DNA from: Candidatus Chloroploca mongolica | GTDB lineage: Bacteria > Chloroflexota > Chloroflexia > Chloroflexales > Chloroflexaceae | Assembly (NCBI RefSeq): GCF_004762035.2 | Contig: NZ_SIJK02000007.1 | Span: forward strand, 62,001-126,000 | Direction of reading: 5' to 3' | Length of the DNA stretch: 64,000 nt | In this document: one piece after another, positions 36,439-43,378 of the stretch | Position numbering within the stretch: position 1 is the first letter of the stretch | Layout of the letters: every line of letters begins with the position of its first letter | The notes under the pieces: model-generated | What the model was told of the DNA's origin: nothing | The model's input: only the letters and a program-made list of their open reading frames with translations | The model's database searches: none | Translations under genes and position numbers: made by a program

Positions 36439-36452
36439 AGGGCTAACGCCCT
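36439..36452. repeat. AGGGC-N4-GCCCT mini-hairpin
   Basis: Copy of the short palindrome family, touching the last base of the phnM stop codon. Confidence 0.55.
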
Positions 36453-37630
36453 CACCCCCGGCTTGCTCGCTCCCACATCACCTTATCCCAGTAAATCGGC
36501 GTGCCATTGCGGATCGTCCCCCGCATGCGAGGCAAGCGACCATCTTCGACCAGGCAAAGATCAGCACGCAGGCCGGGGGCAATACGCCCGTGTTCGGCCA
36601 TGTTGAGGGCAGCAGCAGGCCCGGCAGTCACCAGGCCAATGCTGGTGGGAAGATCGGTGATGCCCTCGCGGGCAAGACCAAAGGCCGCATGGAGGAGTGT
36701 GCCGGGGTGGTAGTCGGTCGCCAGACAATCGACAAGACCCGCGGCAACGGCTTCACGAGCACTCAGATTTCCCGAATGGGAGACGCCGCGCAGCGCATTG
36801 GGGCCACCCATCACGATCGCCATGCCCTGTAGGCGGGCCTCCTGGGCCGCCTCAAGCGTCACGGGAAACTCGGCGATGGTCGCACCGAGGGTGGCGACGA
36901 GATCAACTTTCGCCGACGTATCGTCGTCGTGCGAAGCAATGGGCAGGCCCATTTCTGCGGCCAGCGCCGCAATGTCACGCGCCAGCGCCCATCGTTCTTC
37001 CAGGCTTCCTGCCTGCGCAAGACGTTGCCCTAATTCCTCTTCGACATGATCACGCGGAATGCGTCGCCATTGCGACATTGATGTGACATAGCGCTCGATG
37101 TTACGGTACTGCCCCTGCCCCGGCGTGTGATCCATCAGCGAGAGTAACTCGATCTGTCCGGTCTCAAGCAGATCGCCAAGCATCGGCGAAACAATCGGCG
37201 TTGAGACTTCAAAACGTGCATGCACACGTAGATCGATCAACAATTGTGGTCGCAACTGGTGAATATGTTCCGTCATCAGGCGCACGGTATCGAGGCGGCG
37301 GGTATTATCGTGGCTATCATGATCCCAGAATGAAAGGGCCGCGTAGGCGGTGGTAATGCCTGCCGCAGCAAGGCGCTTGTCAAGTTCAAAGATCGCCATA
37401 TCAATCGGAAAATCGGCCCCGAGGCGCGGTTCGATCTCGCGTTCGAGCATATCGCCGTGGATGTCGATCATGCCAGGGATGAGCGTTAGCCCACGCCCCT
37501 CAACAATTGGCATATCGCCAACAACGGCGTCACCTTCATCAAACGCCGCGATCTGCTCGCCCTCAATGCGAAGCCAGCCACGCTCAATGACCATCGTAGG
37601 GAGGACGATACGAACATTCGTGATCAACAT
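36452..37630 (-). CDS. phnM: Ribose 1-methylphosphonate 5-triphosphate diphosphatase
   Basis: 392 aa amidohydrolase. PGMIDIHGDMLEREIEPR carries the metal-binding HxD-like motif; further metal and substrate residues lie in SFWDHDSHD, HARFEVS, SLMDHTPGQGQY, IASHDDDT and DYHPGTLL. PhnM removes pyrophosphate from the phosphonate-loaded ribose triphosphate, just before C-P bond cleavage. It is the last gene of the phn cluster, 193 bp after phnL. The start at 37630 begins the conserved MLITNVRIV. Confidence 0.93.
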   Translation of the reverse strand: MLITNVRIVLPTMVIERGWLRIEGEQIAAFDEGDAVVGDMPIVEGRGLTLIPGMIDIHGDMLEREIEPRLGADFPIDMAIFELDKRLAAAGITTAYAALSFWDHDSHDNTRRLDTVRLMTEHIHQLRPQLLIDLRVHARFEVSTPIVSPMLGDLLETGQIELLSLMDHTPGQGQYRNIERYVTSMSQWRRIPRDHVEEELGQRLAQAGSLEERWALARDIAALAAEMGLPIASHDDDTSAKVDLVATLGATIAEFPVTLEAAQEARLQGMAIVMGGPNALRGVSHSGNLSAREAVAAGLVDCLATDYHPGTLLHAAFGLAREGITDLPTSIGLVTAGPAAALNMAEHGRIAPGLRADLCLVEDGRLPRMRGTIRNGTPIYWDKVMWERASRG

Positions 37631-37823: not shown

Positions 37824-38498
37824 TCATGCTACATGAAATTCTACATCAATCAATCCTGCGATATCTTCGGGGTGATGAAAGACACCGATCATCGCAACGC
37901 CAGCAGCCTTGAGGGTCTTGATCCGCGAGCACAGCGCAGCGCGGGCGTCGGGGTCAAGGGCGGACGTTGGCTCGTCGAGTAGCAGCAGGCGCCGCGGGGC
38001 GATCATCGCACGCGCCAGGTTGATCTTCTGTTGCTCGCCCCCCGAGAAGGTGCTCGGATAGGCCTGCCAGATCGCTGCCTTGAGCCCCAGCGACCCAAGC
38101 CAATCCGCTGCTGCCTCACGCGCTTCGGCGAGGCTATGCCCCGCCACGAGCAATGGCTCAGCGACAAGGTCAAGCGCCGTCACTCGTGGACGTGGGCGCA
38201 GGAACTGGGTGACATGGCCGATTTCGGTCCGGCGCAAGAGGGCTATGTCTACATCAGCGGCCGAGGCAAGATCAATTGTTCCGTCAGCCGCCGCAAAGAG
38301 CGCCTGACCCCGCTCAGGCAGGTAAGTGCGGTAGAGGCAACGCAAAAGCGACGATTTGCCGGCCCCGTTCGGCCCACGGATCAGCAACAGACTGCCCGCT
38401 TCAAGCGTAAAGCTAACGCCTTGAAAGGCTGGAATGGTGCGACCCAGGGCGTGAATGACAAAGTTCTTGCTCAGATCTTCGACGTGAAGAAGCGGCAT
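37824..38498 (-). CDS. phnL: Phosphonate C-P lyase system ABC-type ATPase PhnL
   Basis: 224 aa ABC protein without a transmembrane partner. Walker A RGPNGAGKSS, VTQFLRPRPRVTALDLVAEP (the PhnL Q-loop region), signature FSGGEQQKINLARAM, Walker B LLLLDEPTSALD and switch FHHPED. Required with PhnGHI for attaching the phosphonate to the ribose C1 position and it can stack on PhnK on the C-P lyase core. 129 bp downstream of phnK, with a hairpin between them. Confidence 0.92.
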   Translation of the reverse strand: MPLLHVEDLSKNFVIHALGRTIPAFQGVSFTLEAGSLLLIRGPNGAGKSSLLRCLYRTYLPERGQALFAAADGTIDLASAADVDIALLRRTEIGHVTQFLRPRPRVTALDLVAEPLLVAGHSLAEAREAAADWLGSLGLKAAIWQAYPSTFSGGEQQKINLARAMIAPRRLLLLDEPTSALDPDARAALCSRIKTLKAAGVAMIGVFHHPEDIAGLIDVEFHVA

Positions 38499-38627: not shown

Positions 38628-39464
38628 TCAGAGACGGGCCGAGACGAGTTGCTGGGTGTAGGGATGTTGGGGATCATCAAGAATCTGATCGGTCAGGCCG
38701 CATTCGACAACTGCACCATGGCGCATGACGAGTACCCGGTCGGCCAGGGTACGAATGACGCCCAGGTCGTGCGAGACGATGAGCGTGGTGATCTGGCGCT
38801 CACGCCTCAGACGGAGCAGGGTGTCAAGGACGAGGGCTTGAATCGAGACATCGAGGCCGGTTGTTGGCTCGTCAAGCAGCAGCAAGGCCGGTCGCAGCGC
38901 AATGGCTTTGGCGAGTTGCACCCGCTGTTGCATCCCGCCCGACAGCACCGCTGGCGGATCATCAATGCGATCAGCCGGAAATTCGGAACTTGCCAACGCG
39001 TCGCTTGCAGCCCGCCGCAGCGTCGCAAAACGACGCTCGCCCGCCATGATGAGCCGTTCGGCCACATTGCCGCCACTGGTCGCCTGCATCCGCAAGCCCA
39101 TATGCGGCTGCTGGTAGACAATGCCAATCTGCTGGATGCGCAGTTGCCGCTGATGAAAGCGATCGAGCGCAAAGAGGTTCTGCCCCGTGAACCCTGGCAC
39201 AGCCAGGTGGTACGTGCCTGTGTCGGTTGCCTCTTCCAGGTTGAGCATCCGCAAGACGGTCGATTTGCCCGAGCCCGACTCACCGACAATGCCCACTGTT
39301 TCGCCAGGGTAGAGTTCGAGGTTCACGCCCTGCACCGCAACAATGCGCCCATAGCGCTTGCTCAGGCCGCGTAGTTCCAGCAGGGGTGCCTGTCGAACCA
39401 GGCGCGGCGGTAGCAGGCGCCGCTGGTGTGGCTGCGGTTGAGGCGTCACAGGCTCGATGTTCAT
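38628..39464 (-). CDS. phnK: C-P lyase ABC-type ATPase PhnK
   Basis: 278 aa. Walker A GESGSGKST, NLEEATDTGTYHL, IGIVYQQPHMGLRMQATSGG (typical PhnK Q-loop region), signature LSGGMQQRVQLAKAI and Walker B LLLDEPTTGLDVS are all present. PhnK docks on PhnJ of the core complex and is needed for phosphonate breakdown. The N-terminal ~30 residues are Pro/Gln/Arg-rich. ATG 39464 starts 7 nt after the phnJ stop; upstream codons in the same frame overlap phnJ and are not coding. Confidence 0.92.
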   Translation of the reverse strand: MNIEPVTPQPQPHQRRLLPPRLVRQAPLLELRGLSKRYGRIVAVQGVNLELYPGETVGIVGESGSGKSTVLRMLNLEEATDTGTYHLAVPGFTGQNLFALDRFHQRQLRIQQIGIVYQQPHMGLRMQATSGGNVAERLIMAGERRFATLRRAASDALASSEFPADRIDDPPAVLSGGMQQRVQLAKAIALRPALLLLDEPTTGLDVSIQALVLDTLLRLRRERQITTLIVSHDLGVIRTLADRVLVMRHGAVVECGLTDQILDDPQHPYTQQLVSARL

Positions 39465-39471
39465 ACCTGGC

Positions 39472-40410
39472 TCACTCTGCACGGATGACCCCTGGCTGAT
39501 AAAAATGGCCCTCATCATCAAAATAGGTCGCGCCAAGGGTGGCTGCGTCGCCGCGTGCGCGACGTAGCAATTTGGCGGCATACCCAGTGTCGGAAAGGCG
39601 GAACTGTGAACCACCTTCGGCAACTGGTAGTTCATCCATAAATTTGTTGCGCGCCCCGGTAAGCATACAGATTCGTCCGGCCATGTTCTCGACCTGGAAA
39701 AAGACATCTTCAAATTCAATCGGGCGCACGTCGGTATACGGCGGCACCGCATAGAGTCGCTTTTCACGTCCCGCCGAGAGCAGCGTGAGATGAGCAGCCT
39801 GGTGCAGCGCAGGCGTATCCCAGCGTGGAATGGGGCTAGGACTCATCAGATAGCGCCCGTGGACAAGAACAGGGTAGCTGGCCCCCTGCATGAACCGTCC
39901 GAAGCGCACCAGTTGTTCATAGAGCGTCAGCCACATCTGGGCATAGTCAGCATCGGCGTGCATCTCGCGGGCACGTGAACTATCAGGTTGCACCTGGCGC
40001 AGAGGTTCTGGATCGGGCACCTGCAAAACGAGCACCTGCCCCTCGCGCAGACGTTCCTCGGGCACGCGATGGCGGCTCTGGATCACCGTGGCGGCCAGGG
40101 TATCGGTTGTCGTAGCGACACTCGTCATGCGGGCAATGAAGCGGCGCAGGTTAGCCGCGTTGACCGAATCGTCGGCACCCTGGTCGATCACCTTGAGCGT
40201 ATCAGTTGGACTCACGATGCTCAGCGTCACCTGGAGGCCGCCGGTGCCCCAACCGCGGGCAATCGGCAACTCGCGGCTGGCATAGGGCACCTGGAAGCCG
40301 GGAATGGCAATGGCCTTGAGCATGCGCCGACGCAATTCACGCTTCGCGAACGCATCCAGAAAACCGTAGCTGAAATCCTGACGAGGATGGGCAAGCGAGG
40401 CAAGGCTCAT
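39472..40410 (-). CDS. phnJ: C-P lyase subunit PhnJ lacking the canonical Fe-S and catalytic cysteines
   Basis: 312 aa. Most of the protein aligns well to PhnJ: LKAIAIPGFQVPYASRELP, GWGTGGLQVTLS, DTLKVIDQGADDSVNA, ATVIQSRHRVPE, VPDPEPLR, SPSPIPRWDTP and GREKRLYAVPPYT. In known PhnJ the C-terminal region holds C-x2-C-x21-C binding a 4Fe-4S cluster, and a further Cys that forms the thiyl radical which breaks the C-P bond. Here the region reads RICMLTGARNKFMDEL and QFRLSDTGYAAK: only C248 remains (E. coli C241), and the other positions are T251, L272 and A278. C248 is the only Cys in the whole protein. The frame is unbroken and flanked by conserved residues, so this is not a frameshift. It overlaps phnI (ATGA) and precedes phnK. 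Either another chemistry or cofactor is used, or the subunit is structural. Confidence 0.9.
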   Translation of the reverse strand: MSLASLAHPRQDFSYGFLDAFAKRELRRRMLKAIAIPGFQVPYASRELPIARGWGTGGLQVTLSIVSPTDTLKVIDQGADDSVNAANLRRFIARMTSVATTTDTLAATVIQSRHRVPEERLREGQVLVLQVPDPEPLRQVQPDSSRAREMHADADYAQMWLTLYEQLVRFGRFMQGASYPVLVHGRYLMSPSPIPRWDTPALHQAAHLTLLSAGREKRLYAVPPYTDVRPIEFEDVFFQVENMAGRICMLTGARNKFMDELPVAEGGSQFRLSDTGYAAKLLRRARGDAATLGATYFDDEGHFYQPGVIRAE

Positions 40411-41516
40411 TGCGCGTCTCCTGGCTCTGTGGGGGCGTCGGCAGCGGTTGCGCGTGCCTCGCGAAGGGCATCGAGGCCACTCTGGAATGTGACATAGTGA
40501 GGGAGTTTGTAGTGGATGCAGAAGCCGGACGCTTCGACGGGTTCAGTATGGTAGAGCACAAACTCTTCGCTGTGGGCCGGATGCGGCTGCGGGGCATCCA
40601 TCTCGAGATCGAGCATCGCCCCGGCGATGCATTTGACCTCATTCCAGCCCAGGGTTGCCGTGTAGCCGAGGCGCAATTCGGTGGCCTGCGTATTGACGAC
40701 CTCGCACTGGCTGACCCGCACCCGCCCGATGCTAAAAGCTTCGCCGGTGACGGGATGGCGCAGCCGCACATCGGCATAGGCCAGCCGCAACTCGTTGACG
40801 GTCGGGTGAGCGAGGCCATAGCCACGCATACTGGCATAACCAAGTGCCAGCACGCCCCCCGTATCGGCGCGTGCCAGGGCTTGCAGGCGATGCGCACGAG
40901 GGGCCGGAAAATCGGCCGGCTCGCGGGTCAGATCAGGTAAAGAGGCCGGATCGGTGGGCGGGACTTCAGGCACTGCCGCAAGCAAACCTTCGCTACGTTG
41001 CCAATCAGCGACCGCCAGCGGCGATGGATCGTACGAGGGAGGAGCCTCGCCCGCTGGTGCATCAGATGACACGGTAGCCGCAGGAGGCGCGGATGCACTG
41101 TGCTCCTGATTGTCCTGATCGAGCAGATCAAGCCGCAGCAAGCGATGGCTATAATCAAGACTTGGCCCGAGGATCTGCCCCCCCGGGATATCCTTGAATG
41201 AGGCCGAAATGCGGCGCACGGTCAGCAACTCAGTCTGCGTCACCGGCTCGGCATACGCAAGGCGGGGTTGCGTCGAACGATAGGCCCGCAAGAGCAAGAC
41301 CGCCTCGTAGAGATCGCCGCCCGTTTGGGCGAGCGCAAGTGCAGCCAATTCAGGCGCATAGAGTGAACCTTCGCCCATCACGCGATCAACAAGATACGGC
41401 AGGCTCGCTTCGATCATCCGCACCGTCGCGAGGCTCAACGGAGCATTGAGCAACTGATGCAACTGCTCGGATTGAAGGATCGCCGCCTCGCCGCCGCGTG
41501 CTGCCACATACGCCAT
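40407..41516 (-). CDS. phnI: C-P lyase subunit PhnI
   Basis: 369 aa (E. coli PhnI ~354). MAYVAARGGEAAI at the N-terminus, EGSLYAPELAALALAQTGGDLYEAVLLLRAYRST (cited as two motifs EGSLYAPELAALALAQ and YEAVLLLRAYRST) and LGYASMRGYG, HPTVNELRLAY, GWNEVKCIAGAMLD are diagnostic. PhnI is the nucleosidase-like subunit that with PhnG, PhnH and PhnL displaces adenine from ATP by phosphonate. A ~30-residue Pro/Ser/Ala-rich insertion lies near residues 165-200. ATG 41516 overlaps the phnH stop (TGATG). Confidence 0.93.
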   Translation of the reverse strand: MAYVAARGGEAAILQSEQLHQLLNAPLSLATVRMIEASLPYLVDRVMGEGSLYAPELAALALAQTGGDLYEAVLLLRAYRSTQPRLAYAEPVTQTELLTVRRISASFKDIPGGQILGPSLDYSHRLLRLDLLDQDNQEHSASAPPAATVSSDAPAGEAPPSYDPSPLAVADWQRSEGLLAAVPEVPPTDPASLPDLTREPADFPAPRAHRLQALARADTGGVLALGYASMRGYGLAHPTVNELRLAYADVRLRHPVTGEAFSIGRVRVSQCEVVNTQATELRLGYTATLGWNEVKCIAGAMLDLEMDAPQPHPAHSEEFVLYHTEPVEASGFCIHYKLPHYVTFQSGLDALREARATAADAPTEPGDAQ

Positions 41517-42064
41517 CAACCCACCTCCACCCTGGTCGTCCGTGGCAAGCCAATGACCTGATCGCCATCCACGAGATAGAGATCCCAGCCAAGCGGATAG
41601 ACAGCCACCGTCGCACGGGCACGCCAAAGTTCGTCAGGCAACCGAGCAACCGTGATCGTCAATGGCTGGGCAAGACCGGGGCCACTGAGGTGCAACGGCG
41701 TTCCATGCGCAAAACCACAGCCGAGCACCAGGGTTGCCCCACGATCCGGCTCGGCGTAGGTACCAAGCGGTGCCGTCACGAGCAGATCAAGCTCGGCGAG
41801 CGTGAGTTGAGGATAAAATTGGTAGGGTGCGTGGATCGGCGGAAGTGGACGTCCGCCGGTTGCGGCGAGGGCAGGAACAAGATCGTCATGCGGCGTAAAA
41901 AAACCGGTCTCGAGATCAAGCAACGTCTCACCGATGGCAACAAAGGCGGCCAGGCCAGCGGCGGGGAGGCGCTGAGGGCGTCCAGGGTAACTGAACGCCC
42001 ACATCAACGCCGTAAAGGTCGCGTGCTGACGGAGTTCGGCGGGAGTCATGTGCGGCATAGACAT
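41516..42064 (-). CDS. phnH: C-P lyase subunit PhnH
   Basis: 182 aa. TFTALMWAFSYPGRPQ near the N-terminus, FYPQLTLAELDLLVTAPLG, a GPGL turn and the C-terminal YPLGWDLYLVDGDQVIGLPRTTRVEV, which matches the PhnH end RYPLGVDL...LPRTT. PhnH is a PLP-transferase-like fold without the catalytic lysine and forms part of the PhnGHIJ core. ATG 42064 overlaps the phnG stop (TGATG), the same junction type as phnH-phnI. Confidence 0.9.
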   Translation of the reverse strand: MSMPHMTPAELRQHATFTALMWAFSYPGRPQRLPAAGLAAFVAIGETLLDLETGFFTPHDDLVPALAATGGRPLPPIHAPYQFYPQLTLAELDLLVTAPLGTYAEPDRGATLVLGCGFAHGTPLHLSGPGLAQPLTITVARLPDELWRARATVAVYPLGWDLYLVDGDQVIGLPRTTRVEVG

Positions 42065-42483
42065 CAAAACGTCTCCAGATCAACCCTGGTTTGCCCAACC
42101 GCACGCATCAAAGCTTCATCGGTCTCCACCAGATCAGCAGCCTGGACACGGGCAAAATCGGCGATAGCAGGGCCAGCGATCCCGGCACGATGGGCGGCAT
42201 CGATAAGCGCAAGGGCAAGCGCCTGTTCAAGATCGCGCCCAAGACAGGCTGCATACCCTTCAACCCCAGCGACACGGACATGAGCCTCGGCCAACAAAAT
42301 CTCGCCCAGGTAAAAACTGCTCTCCTGGGCCGTTTCACGAAATGGCAACATCGCCAATCCTGTTCGGTTGCGCAACACCTCTACCGGCTCAAGGCGCGGC
42401 AGCAGATCCTCCGCAAAGCGCTTGACCGCATCCGCAGGGGAGCGGGTCAAGATATCCAATAGCTCGTGTGCTTGCATCAGCAT
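42064..42483 (-). CDS. phnG: C-P lyase subunit PhnG
   Basis: 139 aa. RNRTGLAMLPFRETAQESSFYLGEILLAEAHVRV (motifs TGLAMLPFRETA and FYLGEILLAEAHVRV) and GYAACLGRDLEQALALALIDAA align to the PhnG core; typical PhnG is ~150 aa. First gene of the phnGHIJK run. 70 bp separate it from the TIM-barrel gene upstream, so the run may begin further up. Start codon ATG 42483 or 42477. Confidence 0.87.
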   Translation of the reverse strand: MLMQAHELLDILTRSPADAVKRFAEDLLPRLEPVEVLRNRTGLAMLPFRETAQESSFYLGEILLAEAHVRVAGVEGYAACLGRDLEQALALALIDAAHRAGIAGPAIADFARVQAADLVETDEALMRAVGQTRVDLETF

Positions 42484-42553: not shown

Positions 42554-43378
42554 TCAACACGCAAAACCGCACCTCGTCAGATAGGCCATCCCACGGGGGA
42601 TGTGCGCATGATCTTCGAGTTCAAGCAACAGACGTGGCTGATGGGACAAGGTTTGCAGGGCGGTAAAAAAGGCATACCAGTTGATCGCGCCATCACCGGG
42701 CGCCCAATGACGGTCAAGGTGCCCATCGGTATCCTGAAGATGCACATGCGCAAGCAGATCGCCGGCTTCGCGCACCCACTGATCAGGGGTAGGGCCACCG
42801 ATTTGCTGCATCATGCACACATGGCCTACATCAATGCTGAGCCGTACGAGAGGCGTATCGAACGAACGCACCAGATCAAGCAGGGGGGCCACACTGCCAT
42901 CGGCAATCGTCTCGATCACCAGCATGCAATCAAGCGCCTCGGCCTGGGGCAACAGTGGCTCGATGACCGCATGGGCCTCTTTGATTGTCCACTCACGACG
43001 CGCAAACGGGGTAAAGACGTGGGCCGGGGTGCCAAAGCAGAGAAAGGGACTATGCAGCACCATATGGGTCGCGCCAACCGCCTCGGCAAACGCGAGGCCC
43101 TGGCGCAGCCGTTCGATGACCACCTGGCGCACCTTTGGATCGTAGGGGGCCAGATCGAGGCCAAGAAACGGCCCGTGGATGCCCAGACGCCCGGTATAGC
43201 CGCGAAGCATCTCGCGAGCATGGCGAGCGGCGGTGCGCCAATCACCATCAAGGACTTCGGGCGCAATCGGATCCTGGATTTCAAGATCACGTGGACCATC
43301 GAGCAACCAGTCGCGATAGACTTCAAGGTCTTTGATCTGTAAGGCCGCCCCAATCAGCGGCACCGTTTGCTGGATCAT
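42554..43378 (-). CDS. Xylose isomerase-like TIM-barrel protein (sugar phosphate isomerase/epimerase family)
   Basis: 274 aa. AP_endonuc_2-type barrel: LGIHGPFLGLDLAPYDP, GATHMVLHSPFL, CMLVIETIADGS, VRLSIDVGHVCMMQ, LLAHVHLQDTDGHLDRHW and LLLELEDH supply the His/Glu/Asp metal-binding set of the family. Members are isomerases, epimerases or endonucleases. 3 bp after the upstream PLP enzyme and 70 bp before phnG, so it may be transcribed with the phn genes. A part in handling the ribose phosphate released by C-P lyase is inference. Confidence 0.82.
   Translation of the reverse strand: MIQQTVPLIGAALQIKDLEVYRDWLLDGPRDLEIQDPIAPEVLDGDWRTAARHAREMLRGYTGRLGIHGPFLGLDLAPYDPKVRQVVIERLRQGLAFAEAVGATHMVLHSPFLCFGTPAHVFTPFARREWTIKEAHAVIEPLLPQAEALDCMLVIETIADGSVAPLLDLVRSFDTPLVRLSIDVGHVCMMQQIGGPTPDQWVREAGDLLAHVHLQDTDGHLDRHWAPGDGAINWYAFFTALQTLSHQPRLLLELEDHAHIPRGMAYLTRCGFAC

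Follow-up and report, generated by a model that had tools for sequence, protein, structure and literature searches.

A conserved class of PhnJ proteins without the cysteines of the radical SAM site, encoded in phnGHIJKLM operons

The phn operon of Candidatus Chloroploca mongolica

The window, that is, the whole stretch of 64,000 nucleotides of Candidatus Chloroploca mongolica analysed here, carries the genes phnG to phnM together on the minus strand. PhnG (42064..42483) scores above the Pfam cut-off and reaches 83.8 bits against the NCBIfam value of 89, while PhnH (41516..42067) is above both cut-offs. The phnI gene (40407..41516) lies in a listed reading frame of 40407-41627; alignment with its E. 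coli counterpart places the predicted start at the methionine of MAYVAARGG. The RPnTP diphosphatase PhnM (36452..37630) is above the NCBIfam cut-off. The ABC proteins encoded at 38628..39464 and 37824..38498 have PhnK and PhnL as their best NCBIfam matches, at 225.6 and 229.9 bits, under the cut-offs of 302.85 and 256.3, respectively; the start of phnK is also a predicted one, the listed frame beginning at 39767, within phnJ. With these two assigned as best matches under the NCBI cut-offs, the presence of the other core genes, phnGHIKLM, agrees with an earlier note made from the letters of this DNA.

Directly upstream of phnG a xylose-isomerase-like TIM-barrel protein is encoded (42554..43378, minus), which gives a weak match to the CbiR phosphodiesterase (31 bits, cut-off 105). 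Genes annotated as sugar phosphate isomerase/epimerase are also found in the phn clusters of Thermus plasmid pVV8 and of Haloarcula. The best match to PhnP in the genome has 113.8 bits, under the cut-off of 272, and the TIM-barrel protein may be a downstream enzyme acting in place of PhnP. Residues 243-357 of PhnI (40410-41627, minus) weakly match the PhnG profile (26.5 bits, cut-off 32.4; NCBIfam PhnG 29.9 bits, cut-off 89), so that an internal relation between PhnI and PhnG is possible. The three PhnD-family proteins of the genome are all encoded on other contigs, and none was found on the contig of the window.

The phnJ gene (39472..40410, minus), identified by the PhnJ profile and by residue alignment, encodes 312 amino acids in an unbroken frame, and its product belongs to the PhnJ family, the match to Pfam PF06007 reaching 409 bits against a cut-off of 25. 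In the alignment to E. coli PhnJ (PDB 4xb6_D, E 9.8e-83) the cysteines C241, C244, C266 and C272 correspond to C248, T251, L272 and A278, C248 being the sole cysteine of the protein, as the note had stated. The CX2CX21CX5C motif, which provides the cluster ligands and the thiyl radical, is thus absent. The four positions lie in the C-terminal domain (residues 236-312; 39472..39705, minus), together with P262 and a T-Y-F/Y motif at the tail. In the AlphaFold2 model of the protein the mean pLDDT is 68.8, with values of 81-90 for residues 241-300 and mostly below 50 for region 131-180, which contains the central insertion. Residues 7-284 of the model superpose on E. coli PhnJ (7z19_D) with a Z score of 25.6 and an rmsd of 3.1 over 258 aligned residues, and the model predicts the PhnJ fold including both the central insertion and the C-terminal domain.

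Extent and descent of the Cys-less class

PhnJ is encoded in 19 of 41 genomes (that of the window included), in 13 of them as a Cys-less protein (73-100% identical) and in six as the canonical one (55-57%). Two genomes of the same genus, with PhnJ proteins 98.7-99.4% identical, carry the Cys-less pattern and so do ten more of the 41; the pattern is not an error of sequencing or a frameshift. A scan of genome contigs confirmed at least 515 relatives, and the best 80 are all Cys-less, as expected since the query itself is Cys-less. Their titles name Oscillochloris, Chloroflexaceae, Anaerolineae, Caldilineaceae, Deinococcales and Trueperaceae, followed, from locus L053 onward, by Rhizobium, Agrobacterium, Devosia and Rhodobacteraceae; among them are also oddly labelled bins (Gracilibacteria L024, Bacteroidetes L040, Gammaproteobacteria L045 and Pleurocapsa L046). 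Further Cys-less members are those of Thermus thermophilus HB8 plasmid pVV8 (L132), Haematobacter (L130) and Nitratireductor (L180), whereas the proteins of Sinorhizobium meliloti pSymB (L131), Shinella (L178), Proteus (L179), Martelella (L181) and Haloarcula (L182) are canonical. The Cys-less group therefore spans titles from Chloroflexota, Deinococcota and Alphaproteobacteria. The note had not foreseen its occurrence in Thermus and in many Alphaproteobacteria. Annotated members from Rhizobium, Agrobacterium, Rhodobacteraceae and Thermus are labelled as ordinary C-P-lyase PhnJ, although they belong to the same class as the window protein.

The loss of the cysteines is all-or-none. Among 181 distinct PhnJ sequences from 211 loci, 92 have the four cysteines (CCCC) and 89 have three or four of them missing, with no intermediate; because these were gathered both with a Cys-less query and by PhnJ-profile searches, the proportion 92:89 should not be taken as a census. 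In the 89 Cys-less sequences the first position is C (86) or D (3), the second is S or T throughout, the third is V, L, I, A or M, and the fourth is chiefly G, A, V or M. The known cluster ligands are gone from the whole class, and other ligands or partners could take their place. In L038 and L043, both metagenome bins, PhnJ has no cysteine at all, and for such Cys-free members a PhnJ thiyl radical or a Cys-held cluster, as in E. coli, is excluded. The class has conserved residues of its own. P262 is found in 89/89 Cys-less sequences and is not one of the three commonest canonical residues at that site; E241 and K280 are each present in 89/89, against 48/92 and 26/92 canonical sequences, respectively; and the tail motif [TW][YWF][YF] occurs in 83/89 Cys-less and in 1/92 canonical proteins. 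In Chloroflexota HMM bits fail to split the classes, as G203 and G395 score low and yet are CCCC, and they do not always separate them in Alphaproteobacteria either (G169, L245). For that reason class was assigned from the residues wherever the sequence was fetched.

Ninety-five representatives were placed in a quick maximum-likelihood tree, calculated without the columns of the C-terminal domain and rooted only at the midpoint. A single branch (SH-aLRT 95) separates the 39 Cys-less rows from all the others, which requires one change; this pattern fits one origin of the class. The group has as its neighbours canonical proteins from the Chloroflexota samples and from Haloarcula (99 for the branch that joins them), and the Thermus protein is a long branch at the base of the group. 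Median pN/pS for residues 236-283, in a range where pS is close to saturation, is 0.41 (40 sequences, mainly Chloroflexota) and 0.35 (47 alphaproteobacterial) for the Cys-less sets, and 0.33 (18), 0.34 (24) and 0.39 (29) for the canonical ones. The core gives 0.16-0.25 in all five sets and is under stronger constraint than the C-terminal domain, whichever the class. A subset of 13 Cys-less sequences reaches 0.46 for residues 236-312, above every canonical set, with 0.19 in the core. Since the values are similar, the Cys-less C-terminal domain evolves much as the canonical one does and does not decay freely. Nothing was found in favour of gene decay, a frameshift or an assembly error, and the open frame, purifying selection, the 89 distinct sequences and the single group in the tree all speak against them; the probability of this explanation is negligible. 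The alignment and tree that the earlier note had called for hence gave a conserved group, and its view that decay is unlikely is borne out.

Occurrence alone or beside canonical PhnJ

A single PhnJ was found in the genome of the window, an assembly of 6.3 Mb in 160 contigs that is 99.84% complete; a second, canonical phnJ, for which the note had asked, did not appear there. In the sample of the taxonomic class of the window, 46/158 genomes encode PhnJ; by residues it is Cys-less in 18 and canonical in 28, and none has both. One genome (G085) encodes two PhnJ proteins that are both canonical, the respective phn operons, each with phnG to phnM, being divergent on one stretch (L220), while in another (G076) the second copy is an N-terminal fragment that cannot be classed. 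The phylum sample, which overlaps that of the class, contains PhnJ in 36/400 genomes, 11 Cys-less and 25 canonical, again with no genome having both. For 34 of the 80 best relative loci we then considered the genomes. In those of Chloroflexota and Deinococcales the Cys-less PhnJ is the single one (10/10), but in those of Alphaproteobacteria a canonical copy, read from its sequence, is also present (24/24). For Thermus, plasmid pVV8 was covered. No probability is given for the alphaproteobacterial co-occurrence because the species are related and not independent. In the taxonomic class of the Agrobacterium genome G168 (L053) PhnJ is found in 48/289 genomes and the Cys-less form in two of them, the centre genome G168 and G559, both with a second copy, canonical by sequence in the former and by score only in the latter. 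The 287 genomes without the Cys-less form include 46 with PhnJ, one copy each of at least 467 bits, and the 29 that were read are all CCCC. In Rhizobium miluonense (G177, L065) six PhnJ matches are found, one of them a 24.6-bit fragment with a stop, and three canonical PhnJ lie within ~42 kb of one contig.

Where a canonical copy accompanies the Cys-less one, as in Alphaproteobacteria, the pairing suggests that the two copies divide the work by substrate; the 24/24 co-occurrence would also fit a dependence on canonical PhnJ in that group. The latter could mean that canonical PhnJ or another activating enzyme supplies the radical in trans, with Cys-less PhnJ as a partner subunit. The frequency of canonical PhnJ in those 24 genomes, compared with PhnJ in 46/287 genomes without the Cys-less form, and the invariance of Gly32 speak for it. 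Nevertheless, the window genome and the ten of Chloroflexota and Deinococcales have no second copy, both kinds are found in 0/46 PhnJ-bearing genomes of the class of the window (the G076 fragment being unclassable), no extra gene recurs in the operons, and a radical obtained from elsewhere would still leave the PhnJ thiyl missing. We consider this explanation improbable, and in the window genome and its class the Cys-less system is most likely an autonomous variant, judging from gene content.

The operons of both classes are much alike. All seven genes phnG-M are present in 23/33 non-alphaproteobacterial Cys-less loci and in 13/19 canonical Chloroflexota loci. Nine of the ten incomplete Cys-less loci are cut by the contig end, and L035 has no detected phnM; among the incomplete canonical loci, five have no detected phnG or phnH and one ends after phnL. 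The class-to-class comparison of neighbours covered a marker set, and some neighbour-gene clusters are antisense noise. Transporter genes (C, E, D) and a DapH-like gene recur in both classes, and phnF recurs in alphaproteobacterial loci. The DapH-like acetyltransferase was considered as a class-specific extra gene and rejected, since it also stands beside canonical operons. Apart from the phn and DapH-like genes, every cluster is limited to 7 or fewer of the 33 non-alphaproteobacterial Cys-less loci, hence a separate catalytic subunit, one of the options of the earlier note, finds no support. Its reading accordingly stands as to conservation instead of decay, and is unsupported as to the additional subunit.

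The retained zinc site and possible functions

Relative to E. coli PhnJ (PDB 4xb6, 7z15-7z19), the Cys-less class shares the fold, the functional residues, the partner subunits and the operon, and differs in the lack of the CX2CX21CX5C motif and in its own tail motif. In E. coli, Arg107, His108 and Gln124 of PhnJ touch a ligand modelled as PRcP at a zinc site formed with His328 and His333 of PhnI (PMC9947105). The equivalents of these three PhnJ residues and of Gly32 are present in 89/89 Cys-less proteins, His108 being replaced by Q in 2/92 canonical ones. They are R113, H114, Q130 and G38 in the window PhnJ, and the window PhnI contributes H372 and H377 in the places of His328 and His333, with the equivalents of all three zinc ligands (His219/His328/His333) present, which predicts a metal site and the residues of the PRcP site. 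The triad is HHH in 55/58 aligned PhnI proteins of both classes, with two DHH and one incomplete.

Given that the radical site is lost while the other functional residues and the partner genes are kept, the machine is probably put to a different, non-radical use. We propose, with an even chance in our estimate, that the Cys-less proteins form a second, conserved class of PhnJ proteins in which the radical SAM site has been lost and which would still work within PhnGHIJKLM, non-radically, at the zinc site. In the model, PhnI would attach the ribose of ATP to the phosphorus compound, PhnM would take off pyrophosphate, and Cys-less PhnJ would then act by non-radical means at the zinc site shared by PhnI and PhnJ. 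The simplest route would be an attack of the ribose 2'-OH on the phosphorus, expelling a stabilised leaving group and giving rise to the usual 1,2-cyclic phosphate, a mechanism drawn by chemical analogy. Activated phosphonates or other P-X compounds would serve as substrates. Reading the substrate from PhnD was rejected as too weak, the three operon-linked PhnD proteins having PtxB (two) or E. coli PhnD (one) as best match. The accepted C-P cleavage in E. coli is a SAM-dependent radical step (PMC9947105, PMC7916636), which counts against a non-radical reading. A bolder claim, which we put forward tentatively and at less than an even chance, is that of a second C-P lyase class, present in at least three phyla, that would break C-P bonds at the shared zinc site without a Cys-held cluster, a SAM radical or a PhnJ thiyl. 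Between the different chemistry and the function other than C-P cleavage that the note had offered, the present data do not separate.

Methylphosphonate and other unactivated alkylphosphonates might still be cleaved by the Cys-less system through a different chemistry, in which, for instance, O2 and a redox metal at the His site would take part; C-P cleavage as such would then not require the radical SAM site. An ordinary operon, often with phosphonate-type transporter genes, is in keeping with this. To our knowledge, the known C-P oxygenases have other folds, which counts against it, and no methane or growth record was found. The E. coli structures have zinc at this site, a further argument against. 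In its favour, Gly32 and the Fe4S4 site are ~30 Å apart in E. coli, and the structure is described as unreconciled with the radical mechanism (PMC9947105). Altogether we regard alkylphosphonate cleavage as unlikely. Slightly less probable still, yet ahead of a radical supplied in trans, is that Cys-less PhnJ is a structural pseudo-enzyme and that the complex makes ribose-1-phosphonates, or acts as a nucleosidase or transferase, for another pathway to finish. The proposed catalytic site is indeed lost amid an otherwise ordinary operon, and E. coli PhnH, a PhnJ homologue without the Fe-S site and the C-terminal domain (PMC9947105), provides a precedent (Z 13.5 to the window model). PhnH, however, also lacks the central insertion, whereas Cys-less PhnJ retains both parts, with a C-terminal domain about as constrained as the canonical one and with the product-binding residues kept in 89/89.

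In the literature searched, subscription papers aside, no description of a Cys-less or variant PhnJ class and no activity or growth record for any Cys-less-only organism was found. The four cysteines are called conserved or taken as marks of function (PMC11978286, PMC12413358, PMC7916636, PMC4389238), and two major PhnJ clades have been reported, one of which may be the Cys-less class (PMC11978286). Methane is produced from methylphosphonate by Sulfitobacter HI0054 (PMC5649143), whose PhnJ may be of either class and which is evidence neither way. The phnJ gene is in use as a marker of methylphosphonate use, and if the Cys-less class makes no methane such counts pool two things. In E. coli the radical glycine is ~31 Å away from the zinc ion in the open state, and ~30 Å from the cluster site (PMC9947105). 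A natural class with the glycine and the zinc site but without the cluster means that evolution separates these parts, and is directly assayable. In L037 and L040 the Cys-less phn operon is adjoined by a HAD-like gene, which we take from its motif to be phnX (phosphonatase).
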